46,585 bases of DNA, taken from NCBI GenBank assembly GCA_025451375.1, contig JANWKL010000013.1, forward strand, positions 1 through 46,585, written 5' to 3'. Position numbers and translations under genes: made by a program. The notes under the pieces were generated by a model, which saw nothing but the letters and a program-made list of their open reading frames with translations, was not told the origin of the DNA and searched no databases. This document shows positions 324 through 33,305 of this stretch, piece by piece (positions within the stretch are counted from its first letter, which is position 1; each line of letters opens with the position of its first letter). Source of the stretch: Steroidobacteraceae bacterium (GTDB lineage Bacteria; Pseudomonadota; Gammaproteobacteria; Steroidobacterales; Steroidobacteraceae).

Positions 324-472
324 GGGCCGAAATCGCATCGAAGCGATTTCGGCGGACAGTAGTTTCGTTTTCGCCGGCCTTGGGCGTGGCTCGATGCCCA
401 CCGGCCGCGATCACCTCAGCAGCCGAGCACTTCGCGGCAAGCTTGGCGCAGGGGCTTTGGCCGGCTGCGGCG
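324..472 (+). repeat. Structured dispersed repeat, copy 1
   Basis: A 149-bp block that aligns without gaps to 33120-33268, with 25 mismatches by my count (about 83% identity). 34 bases at 404-437 are identical in both. Predicted stems: P1 327-336/343-352 (10 bp, perfect here); P2 353-356/364-367; P3 373-379/459-465 closing a multi-branch domain; P4 383-386/395-398; P5 405-410/432-437. P2 and P4 differ between copies by G-C to G-T changes that keep pairing. It is not a tRNA, riboswitch or REP class that I recognise. It ends 34 bp before the DUF1697 start codon. A structured RNA and a miniature mobile element are both possible. Confidence 0.8.
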
Positions 473-30675: not shown

Positions 30676-30759
30676 GCTGAGGAGCGTTGCGACGGACCGG
30701 GTGGGAGCACCGCGGTTCGCCAGGCTCAGCGGGTCGTGTCAAACACTACGGCGCTCGCT
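30676..30759 (+). promoter_or_regulatory. S-adenosylhomocysteine (SAH) riboswitch
   Basis: P1 GCTGAG (30676-30681) pairs with CTCAGC (30725-30730). The ligand core GGAGCGTTGCGACGG follows P1, an internal hairpin (about 30695-30718) comes next, and GAGCG (30682-30686) can form the pseudoknot with CGCTC (30752-30756) in 'ACGGCGCTCGC'. This matches the SAH riboswitch consensus. It lies 24 bases before the ahcY ATG and would switch on ahcY-folD when SAH builds up. Confidence 0.92.
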
Positions 30760-30782
30760 TCCGACATTTCGGAGTATCGGGT

Positions 30783-32204
30783 ATGAACGCCACACTAAAA
30801 GCCACTGCCAACACCGCCGACTTCAAAGTCGCGGATCTCGCGCTCGCCGACTGGGGACGCAAGGAGATCGCGATCGCTGAAACCGAGATGCCCGGTCTCA
30901 TGGCAATCCGCGAGGAGTACGCACGCACCCAGCCCCTGAAGGGTGCGCGCATCTCAGGCTCGCTGCACATGACGATCCAGACCGCCGTGCTGATCGAGAC
31001 GCTGCAGGCGCTGGGAGCCCAGGTGCGCTGGGCTTCCTGCAATATTTTCTCGACCCAGGACCACGCCGCCGCCGCCATCGCCGCGCGCGGCAGCGCGGTG
31101 TTCGCCTGGAAAGGCGAGTCGCTCGCCGATTACTGGGACTACACGCACCGCATCTTCGAGTGGGCGGACGGCGGCTACTCCAACATGATCCTCGACGACG
31201 GCGGGGACGCGACGCTGCTCTTGCACATTGGCGTGCGGGCAGAGAGCGATGCGAGCGTGATCGGCAAGCCTTCGAGCGATGAGGAGGCGGCGTTGTTCGC
31301 CTCCATCCGCGCCCGGCTCAAGGCGGATCCCAAGTGGTATTCGGCGCGCATCGGTCACGTCCGCGGCGTCACCGAGGAGACCACCACCGGGGTGAAGCGG
31401 CTTTACCAGATGGCGAAAGAGGGCAAGCTCGCCTTCCCCGCCATCAACGTCAACGACTCGGTGACCAAGAGCAAGTTCGACAACCTGTACGGCTGCCGCG
31501 AATCACTGGTTGATGCGATCAAGCGCGCCACGGACGTCATGATCGCGGGCAAGGTTGCGGTGGTATGCGGTTATGGCGACGTCGGCAAGGGTTGCGGCCA
31601 GGCGCTGCGGGCGCTGTCGGCGCAGGTGTGGGTGACCGAGGTCGACCCGATCTGCGCGCTGCAGGCGGCAATGGAAGGTTACCGCGTCGTCACCATGGAG
31701 TACGCGGCCGACAAGGCGGACATCTTCGTCACCGCGACCGGCAACTACCATGTGATCACCCACGATCACATGAGCCGCATGAAGCACAATGCGATCGTGT
31801 GCAACATTGGCCACTTCGACAACGAGATCGACGTCGCGAGCCTCAAGCAATACAAGTGGGAAAACATCAAGCCGCAGGTCGATCACGTCATTCTCCCGGA
31901 TGGCCGGCGCATCATCCTGCTGGCGGAAGGCAGGCTCGTGAACCTCGGCTGCGGCACCGGTCACCCGAGCTACGTCATGAGCTCGAGTTTCGCGAACCAG
32001 ACCATCGCGCAGGTGGAGCTCTTCACGCAGACCGCGAAATACCCGGTCGGCGTCTACGTGCTGCCGAAACACCTGGATGAAAAAGTGGCAAGGCTGCAGC
32101 TGAAGACGCTCAACGTGCAGCTCTCGCAGCTCAACGACACCCAGGCGGCCTACATCGGCGTGGACAAGACCGGTCCGTACAAGCCGGATCACTACCGCTA
32201 CTGA
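30783..32204 (+). CDS. ahcY: Adenosylhomocysteinase (SAH hydrolase)
   Basis: 473 residues. It splits SAH to homocysteine and adenosine using bound NAD. Landmarks: '[15 protein letters not shown]', '[13 protein letters not shown]', the NAD site '[17 protein letters not shown]', and the C-terminal '[10 protein letters not shown]'. The length includes the insert seen in many proteobacterial enzymes. The ATG at 30783 follows GGAG at 30771 and the SAH riboswitch. It overlaps folD by 1 base (TGATG). Confidence 0.97.
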
Positions 32205-33136
32205 TGAATGCTCCCGCCACGGTTGCGGGAGCGGGCGCGCCGGCACGCGTGAGCGGCGGCGCGATCCTCCTGGACGGCAAGGCAGTCGCGGCGAAGGTTC
32301 GCGCCGAAGTTGGCGCGCGCGCGGCGCGTTTCGCGGCCAACCAGGGTCGTCCGCCGGGACTTGCGGTCGTGCGGGTGGGGGAGGATCCGGCCTCCGCCGT
32401 TTACGTGCGCAACAAGCTCAAGGCCGCGCGCGAGGCCGGTATTGCCTCTTTCGCGCACGACCTGCCGGTGAGCGTGAGCGAGACGCAGCTTCTGACACTC
32501 ATCAATGAGCTCAACCAGGACCCGCGCGTGGACGGCATCCTGGTGCAGCTGCCACTGCCGGCGGGTGTGAATGCCAATCGCATCATGGACGCGGTCGATC
32601 CGGCCAAGGACGTGGACGGATTTCATCCGGTGAACACGGGCCTGCTGGCGCAGAAGCGACCCCGGCTGCGGCCGTGCACGCCGTACGGGGTAATCCGCCT
32701 CGCGCAGGAGTACGGCATTGCGCTGCCGGGAATGCGCGCCACTGTTGTGGGCGCGTCGAATATCGTCGGGCGGCCGATGGCGCTCGAGCTCTTGCTGGCG
32801 CGCGCGACAGTCACCGTCTGTCACACGGGCACGCGGGACCTGAAGGGGGAGGTCGAGCGCGCGGAGCTGGTGGTGGCTGCGGTTGGCAAGGCGGGGTTTA
32901 TCCCCGGGGAGTGGATTCGCCCGGGAGCCGCGGTTTTCGACGTCGGGATCAACCGCACGGCCGCCGGGACGCTGACCGGGGACGTCGAGTTTGAACCGGC
33001 CGCACGGCGCGCCGGCTGGATCACACCGGTTCCGGGAGGCATAGGCCCCATGACCATTGCCATGCTGCTCAGTAGCGCGGTCGACGCCGCCTGCGCGCGG
33101 GCCGGCCTCCCTAGTCAATGGGCCGAAATCGCTTAG
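32204..33136 (+). CDS. folD: Methylenetetrahydrofolate dehydrogenase/cyclohydrolase
   Basis: 310 residues. It interconverts methylene-, methenyl- and 10-formyl-tetrahydrofolate. 'SAVYVRNKLKAA' holds the catalytic lysine, 'VQLPLPAG' and 'KDVDGFHP' form the folate site, 'VVGASNIVGRP' the NADP site, and 'PVPGGIGPMT' the C-terminal signature. Translation is coupled to ahcY, so the SAH riboswitch controls it too. The stop codon and last five residues lie inside repeat copy 2, so the element may have replaced the original end. Confidence 0.95.
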   Translation: MNAPATVAGAGAPARVSGGAILLDGKAVAAKVRAEVGARAARFAANQGRPPGLAVVRVGEDPASAVYVRNKLKAAREAGIASFAHDLPVSVSETQLLTLINELNQDPRVDGILVQLPLPAGVNANRIMDAVDPAKDVDGFHPVNTGLLAQKRPRLRPCTPYGVIRLAQEYGIALPGMRATVVGASNIVGRPMALELLLARATVTVCHTGTRDLKGEVERAELVVAAVGKAGFIPGEWIRPGAAVFDVGINRTAAGTLTGDVEFEPAARRAGWITPVPGGIGPMTIAMLLSSAVDAACARAGLPSQWAEIA

Positions 33137-33268
33137 CAGCGATTGCGGCGGACAAAGGCTCCGTTGCCGCCGGCCAAAGGCGTGGCTCGACGCCCACCTG
33201 CCGCGATCACCTCAGCAGCCGAGCACTTCGCGGTGGGGTGAGCGGACGGACTTTGGCCGGCTGCGGCG
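33120..33268 (+). repeat. Structured dispersed repeat, copy 2
   Basis: Same 149-bp element as at 324-472, same strand, ungapped alignment. P1 33123-33132/33139-33148 has one A-G mismatch here, and the folD stop codon (33134-33136) is in its loop. P2 is 33149-33152/33160-33163. P3 is longer here: 33169-33179 with 33251-33261 (11 bp, perfect). P4 is 33179-33182/33191-33194 and P5 33201-33206/33228-33233. The next gene is an ECF sigma factor starting 111 bases later. No flanking direct repeats are obvious. Confidence 0.8.
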
Positions 33269-33305
33269 TTGGCCGGTTGTGTACGGGCAACATGCCCTAT
33301 GGGAA

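Follow-up and report, generated by a model that had tools for sequence, protein, structure and literature searches.

A family of small two-hairpin DNA repeats in Steroidobacteraceae, probably mobile with YTAR ends and often found just behind stop codons

The 46,585-nucleotide stretch analysed here (the window), from a Steroidobacteraceae bacterium, carries two copies of a structured repeat on its forward strand, the second of which lies in the gap between folD and an ECF sigma gene. The original prediction had set these at 324-472 and 33120-33268. Alignment of the two segments is gap-free at 83% identity, with the 25 mismatches in 149 bases that had been counted by hand, and the identical stretch of 34 bases is indeed common to both copies. 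The borders had to be moved. Aligned copies with their flanks place the start about 9 nt before 324 and 33120, at the CTRG of a CTRG-TYCAT-TGG motif, and copy 2 probably reaches to about 33299 at its 3′ end, judged from the empty folD site of a sister genome (G137). The features of the window are as follows.

315-469, + strand: copy 1, long form, repeat core (CM R1 match G000:C13:315-470, 162.2 bits; alignment A2)
326-353, + strand: P1 hairpin of copy 1 (covarying helix 1, alignments A2 and A3)
373-465, + strand: P4 helix of copy 1, formed by 373-383 and 455-465 around the inner module (covarying helix 2)
388-452, + strand: inner module (about 65 nt) of copy 1, which short forms lack (comparison of sites L362 and L006; borders by eye)
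32204-33136, + strand: folD (ORF), with its last codons AGT CAA TGG GCC GAA ATC GCT TAG inside the repeat
33110-33299, + strand: long-form copy 2, probably the complete insertion, running from CCTAG to CCCTA (CM R1 33111-33266, 166 bits)
33122-33149, + strand: P1 hairpin of copy 2 (covariation)
33169-33261, + strand: P4 helix of copy 2, formed by 33169-33179 and 33251-33261 (covariation)
33184-33248, + strand: inner module (about 65 nt) of copy 2 (comparison of short and long forms; borders by eye)
33262-33299, + strand: 3′ tail of copy 2, diverged, ending CAACATG-CCCTA, compared with GTGTTAACACGCC-YTAR elsewhere (tail alignment with full-length copies of sister genomes)

Copy 1 has a degenerate 5′ end (CTGCTCCAAGGG), and its 3′ tail is not clearly recognisable. 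The limits of copy 2 are based on G137, where the site between folD and the ECF sigma gene is empty and the end of folD has a different sequence, and the copy 2 tail scores below the tail threshold given further on. Neither copy was matched in Rfam 15 at the gathering threshold, and 270-530, around copy 1, was unmatched at E ≤ 1; with the Rfam searches empty at the repeat, a known RNA was rejected. The sole Rfam match in the window at the gathering threshold is an SAH riboswitch (RF01057, 30673-30763, + strand, 54.6 bits), which extends over the first start listed for the ORF at 30687-32204; the true start of that ORF is probably further in. A sigma70 and terminator scan of 200-700 gave no promoter-like site and one antisense terminator-like site, with 0.5 expected.

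The repeat is dispersed through the host genome (G000), a 2.66-Mb MAG that is 93% complete. Genome-wide BLAST with the 149 bases, in which 40 of 90 candidates were scored, returned at least 45 host matches, far more than chance would give; three of these are short reverse-strand echoes of the P1 palindrome. CM R1, built from 29 long copies, gave at least 104 host matches (150 of 3166 candidates scored), two of which overlap copies lying on the other strand. The top 30 of these matches are long, at 154-167 nt, and 40 of the other 74 measure 85-92 nt; long and short forms are about equally common in the host. Among 36 R1 matches in genome G002, one exceeds 150 nt, and as far as seen the short form prevails outside the host. 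A short-form model, R2, built from 73 copies, was matched at E ≤ 1e-4 in 37 of the 58 genomes searched in the genus, a count that includes the host, with at least 74 matches in the richest of them (top 75 candidates per genome scored). At order level, 17 of 296 genomes had a match at E ≤ 1e-5; all of them belong to the same family, and they fall in 5 of 68 genera. Whenever R2 was run against more than 40 genomes, the filters were stricter, and weak matches are lost under them. Units are also arrayed in direct tandem with a period of 79-85 bp at L033 (G017:C390), at L111, L119 and L130 (G003) and at L121 (G043), and no tandem array was found at L189 of G002. Within the L033 array, the 5′ arm of P1 in later units differs from that of the first.

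Copies occur in both orientations. The window copies had been described as upstream of a rightward gene, which is correct for both and is what a 5′-leader cis-regulatory RNA or riboswitch would predict; the family, in contrast, lies mostly downstream of at least one gene. With genes called by a codon-usage ORF caller made for this analysis, not taken from annotation, one of 122 copies falls inside a called gene. Among copies with called genes on both sides, 1 of 22 long copies, 3 of 43 short or irregular copies and 2 of 28 copies in G002 sit between divergent genes, the remainder being downstream of at least one gene. These positions speak against the 5′ regulatory element that had been among the options proposed, and, together with the two orientations and tens of model matches per genome in many genomes, they render a leader RNA exceedingly improbable.

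The short form, of about 90 nt, contains two strongly covarying hairpins, P1 and P4, with compensatory changes in 16 of 19 pairs. Across the aligned copies, 96.7% of cells are paired compared with 83.0% in shuffles, and double-change cells number 165 compared with 42.8; by four of five measures no shuffle out of 500 reached the observed covariation, and by the fifth 5 of 500 did. P1 occurs as several quite different sequences, all of which retain the hairpin. The DNA fold of copy 2 surpasses all 200 shuffles in stability (z -4.0), and the RNA fold of copy 1 surpasses 196 of 200 (z -2.5). The P1/P4 fold is maintained, whether as RNA or as single-stranded DNA. The element proposed as a structured RNA is structured by the measure of covariation, but covariation cannot separate RNA hairpins from DNA hairpins, and the P4 pair table, with four GU and two AC/CA pairs, holds too few of either to separate an RNA from a DNA constraint. 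Of the five stems originally drawn, P1 and the long-range P4 carry strong covariation, and those of the inner module are partly supported.

The inner module has two stems, each with 73% of cells paired; in one of them 3 of 5 pairs show compensatory changes. It also has a possible pseudoknot (GCTCG/CGAGC) that is nearly constant. Its relation to the short form can be read at an orthologous site where G137 has a short copy (L362) and the host a long one (L006). The two share their first 52 nt without a difference and show one further mismatch before the P4 loop, in which L006 has 64 nt, between GGCGT and GAC, that are absent from L362; the upstream flank of this site contains a 17-nt gap. The length difference is observed, and from it we infer that the long form gained the 64-65-nt module. 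At one host locus (L170, G000:C145:9460-9609) the inner module occurs twice in tandem without the usual P1.

Many copies begin at a near-fixed distance behind a stop codon. Copies that start 5-7 nt past a codirectional stop, hereafter docked copies, make up 36 of 73 in the host; the counts are 9 of 30 for G002, 18 of 32 for G137 and 7 of 19 for other genomes taken together. The host sample comprises 26 long and 47 short or irregular copies, with the weakest R1 rows excluded and about ten fragmentary long copies removed before counting (L022, L024, the long L025, L026, L028, L051, L052, L053, L057 and L059b); the G002 sample is 30 of 36 matches, and the G137 sample is 32 copies, where R2 gave at least 72 matches (75 scored). 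An upstream gene in the same direction is present for 50 host copies; 36 of these are docked, 25 of them at exactly 6 nt. The docked stops are also biased. TAG accounts for 22 of 33 in the host (TGA 8, TAA 3), compared with 36 of 124 other host stops (TGA 69, TAA 19; Fisher p 1.8e-4 for the TAG excess), and in G137 for 10 of 13 (TAA 3), compared with 10 of 40 others (p 0.002). Docked host stops are preceded by C in 23 of 33 cases and followed by T in 25 of 33, against 60 and 14 of the 124 others, respectively. Copies L010, L174 and L051 are directly preceded not by a stop codon but by a stretch of T residues, and at L010 this stretch follows an inverted repeat resembling an intrinsic terminator.

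Homologs without a forward copy retained the same protein end in 10 of 12 comparisons and were one and three codons off in the other two. These homologs had at least 45% identity and aligned to within 12 residues of the end, a filter that drops very different ends, and L118 and L157 among the 12 are homologs of each other. As homologs mostly share the stop position, the repeat sits mostly at native stops and does not truncate genes. The folD gene of the window is an exception to docking: it enters the repeat in another frame, leaving the CTAG of the repeat out of frame, so that its C-terminal codons are repeat-derived, and the G137 ortholog has a different C-terminus. The closest relatives of this FolD come from gammaproteobacterial MAGs, some labelled Steroidobacteraceae.

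CTAG occurs six times in the window, where about 146 occurrences are expected from base composition, and the YTAR tetranucleotides together (CTAG, TTAG, CTAA and TTAA) have 35 sites, of which 15 are intragenic, 15 intergenic and 5 at stops. Because YTAR is rare in the window, an element inserting at YTAR would be steered to gene ends, and a YTAR requirement combined with purging of intragenic insertions would explain the TAG bias and some 3′ docking. Docking at TGA is incompletely explained by this model, since CTGA is common in genes (121 of 137 window sites lie inside them). Nor does it fully account for the excess of sense docking, in which the 5′ end faces the stop in 36 host copies and the 3′ end in 3 of 73 (two of the three doubtful), with 18 and 5 of 32 in G137. 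A further possibility would be a targeting of stops that goes beyond YTAR rarity, with the machinery or a repeat RNA sensing the termination site in sense orientation and the module being a nested, independently mobile, pseudoknotted RNA; we regard this combination as decidedly unlikely.

Docking and covariation also bear on a second alternative, in which the repeat is a selected 3′-end mRNA element whose hairpins behind the stop stabilise transcripts, block exonucleases or limit readthrough, and has spread and is kept because it helps the host gene. The strong covariation argues for it, as does a distance between stop and P1 that stays close to 5-7 nt in the host, G002, G137 and other genera. 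So does a single gene whose stop is docked at four loci (L148 in the host, L354 in G137, L033 in G017, and L331), where P1 varies in sequence or an array is present; the same stop with different hairpin sequences across species calls for repeated insertion or sequence conversion. Against such a role, 37 of the 73 host copies examined are undocked, homologs without a forward copy are common and empty sites exist, and P4 lacks a clear excess of GU over AC pairs. We consider a selected 3′-end element unlikely.

Comparison of orthologous sites revealed empty and filled states in both directions. G137 lacks the repeat in the folD/ECF sigma gap of the window, and the L021 site is filled in the host and empty in G137. 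At L132, G137 is empty with TTAG and the host carries a CTAG-element. The clearest site is empty in the host, with a single CTAG, and filled in G137 as CTAG-element-CTAG, with 11 additional bases just upstream in the filled state. For two more G137 copies the host site lacks the element and other indels are present, and empty/filled sites other than the clearest show larger indels or lost tails. One gap holds a short copy in G137 and a long copy of opposite orientation in the host.

Full-length copies in the host and two sister genomes end in a recognisable tail. The pattern GTGTTAACACGCC-YTA, allowing one mismatch, occurs 24 times in three of the ten genomes searched (the host, G137 and G138), whereas a reversed control pattern found no match in those ten. 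With a tail threshold of 10, which shuffled tails never reached (none above 8), 25 of 159 copies score above it; the last 11 nt hold YTRR/YTAY in 20 of these 25 and strict YTAR in 14. The ends, CTAG-TCCATTGG and ACACGCC-CTAG, show no terminal inverted repeats by eye. Four loci (L389, L395, L398 and L399) are deletion derivatives that have wholly or mostly lost P1 and P4 and kept both ends. L382 (G138:C243) is a solo right end (GTGTTAACACGCCCTAA), with no recognisable 5′ half in the 235 nt upstream.

Searches for a mobiliser were directed at several transposase families. Y1_Tnp (PF01797) gave no match in the host or in G002, both incomplete MAGs; over 25 genomes of the genus, host included, scored for both the repeat and Y1_Tnp, it was found in 1 of 14 with the repeat and in 6 of 11 without it, three of these six being weak partial matches. 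IS110 (PF01548) was absent from the host, G017 and G043 and found in G002, G021 and G133, and with PF01548 missing from the host an IS110/bridge-RNA relative was rejected. DDE_Tnp_1 (PF01609) was found in three of nine element-bearing genomes (G002, G139 and G162); its absence from the host and G137 led us to reject an IS5/IS4-type parent. No parent insertion sequence sharing the right end was recognised among the 24 tail matches from three of ten genomes, in which up to 235 nt upstream were viewed and no transposase-bearing copy was recognised: wherever a 5′ end could be made out, the match was this repeat or one of its deletion forms, and at L393 and L397 the locus stops short.

REP-system transposases cut at CT next to a hairpin, according to the accessible part of PMC8266576, and for this reason the mobiliser may possibly be a lost or distant enzyme of the REP-transposase class. 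The same cleavage preference would fit a GTAG-REP/RAYT system, in which an IS200-like tyrosine transposase of the same genome moves the hairpins, as would the TAG-containing tetranucleotide adjoining the hairpins and the directly repeated 79-85 bp units arrayed in G017, G003 and G043. The motif, however, is not GTAG but CTAG followed by a spacer of about 5 nt, and Y1_Tnp is absent from the host and commoner in congeners without the repeat, and we judge such a system very unlikely.

Together, these results make it probable that the family is a small non-autonomous mobile DNA repeat of the REP/MITE kind with YTAR ends, and not a 5′ regulatory RNA. Taken as a whole, the original interpretation is partly supported. 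The miniature mobile element that it listed among its options is the one we favour, on the strength of dispersed copies in both orientations, empty and filled orthologous sites and deletion copies that keep their ends. A unit would consist of YTAR, about 5 nt, P1, a linker of about 22 nt and P4, to which the host and its two sisters add a tail of about 40 nt and a second YTAR. Insertion would take place at YTAR, best at CTAG, and leave YTAR on both sides, as one empty site shows and as we infer for the rest. Intragenic insertions would be purged, and YTAR, by the window count, is rare in this GC-rich genome; the survivors would then be intergenic insertions and those at stop codons (TAG, TAA), which often form part of YTAR. 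The compensatory changes may maintain the hairpins because a mobilising enzyme recognises the folded strand, or because hairpins transcribed behind the stop are useful or tolerated in mRNA. What sets the long form of the window apart from the short form is a separate structured module of 64-65 nt in the P4 loop.

Several observations tell against this explanation. No transposase is linked to the repeat, in a host MAG that is 93% complete, and terminal inverted repeats are not seen by eye. Extra bases or indels accompany even the clearest empty/filled site, and the tail exceeds its threshold in 25 of 159 copies, with strict YTAR in 14 of them. The sense 5′ docking excess is unexpected for simple insertion at a palindromic CTAG, TGA stops are docked although CTGA is common in genes, and different hairpin sequences at one stop would require repeated insertion or sequence conversion. 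A mobile repeat of this kind suggests a simple route by which such elements may come to lie frequently at gene 3′ ends, through a tetranucleotide that is avoided in GC-rich coding sequence and present at stops. The natural series of empty, short, long, tandem and deleted sites is suited to testing REP-like movement without a RAYT; for CGTC-REPs, movement without a dedicated transposase is called an open question in the available text of PMC3733652. In the literature searched, with subscription journals mostly outside its scope, we found no description of this repeat. It is a family unmatched by Rfam 15, ordinary in kind and unusually neat.

REP and MITE repeats are known kinds of element. The view that no known RNA or REP family fits holds for Rfam 15, where nothing matched, but the kind itself has precedents in REPs, MITEs and GTAG-REPs. 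GTAG-REPs lie mostly downstream of ORFs and often supply TAG stops to flanking ORFs, as the consulted portion of PMC3733652 describes, so docking as such has precedent. Like GTAG-REP/BIME elements, as far as the accessible parts of PMC3733652 and PMC8266576 portray them, the repeat has short palindromic hairpins in tens of copies, intergenic and mostly downstream of ORFs, with a TAG tetranucleotide at the stop. Unlike them, it reads CTAG-TYCAT-TGG-hairpin (A3, G137 copies) with a spacer of about 5 nt and lacks an unpaired GTAG directly 5′ of the hairpin. It also has two different hairpins in fixed order, YTAR at both ends when full-length and a nested inner module, and no RAYT was found in the host.

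The repeat might instead belong to the CGTC-REP superfamily, extended to a two-hairpin unit; in the sections of PMC3733652 available to us, CGTC-REPs lack a dedicated transposase, carry CCA tails and include TGTC variants. On the opposite strand P1 is preceded by TGTC, a named variant tag there, and followed by CCA (GGACA/ATTGG around P1, by eye), so the tag and CCA tail are both present, and the P1 loop is about 4-5 nt (alignment A3, by eye). The P1 stem, however, is about 10-11 bp long instead of 8-9 and does not start with A-T pairs, and P1 is part of a larger unit with P4 and a tail, the second hairpin and the YTAR ends lying outside the definition. This makes membership highly improbable.

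With ERIC, Correia/NEMIS, RUP and YPAL, as outlined in the accessible part of PMC2229807, the repeat shares a length of 100-200 bp and a non-coding, intergenic and structured character. With YPAL it also shares empty and filled sites, and the target duplication of MITE-like repeats, described in the same part of that source, may compare with the CTAG that is doubled at our clearest site. Unlike MITE-like repeats, it shows no terminal inverted repeats (15-30 bp sought, by eye), has CTAG/YTAR instead of TA ends and docks exactly at stops. As it misses at least one defining feature of each known family, we do not file it as a member of any of them; it appears to work like a REP or MITE repeat.
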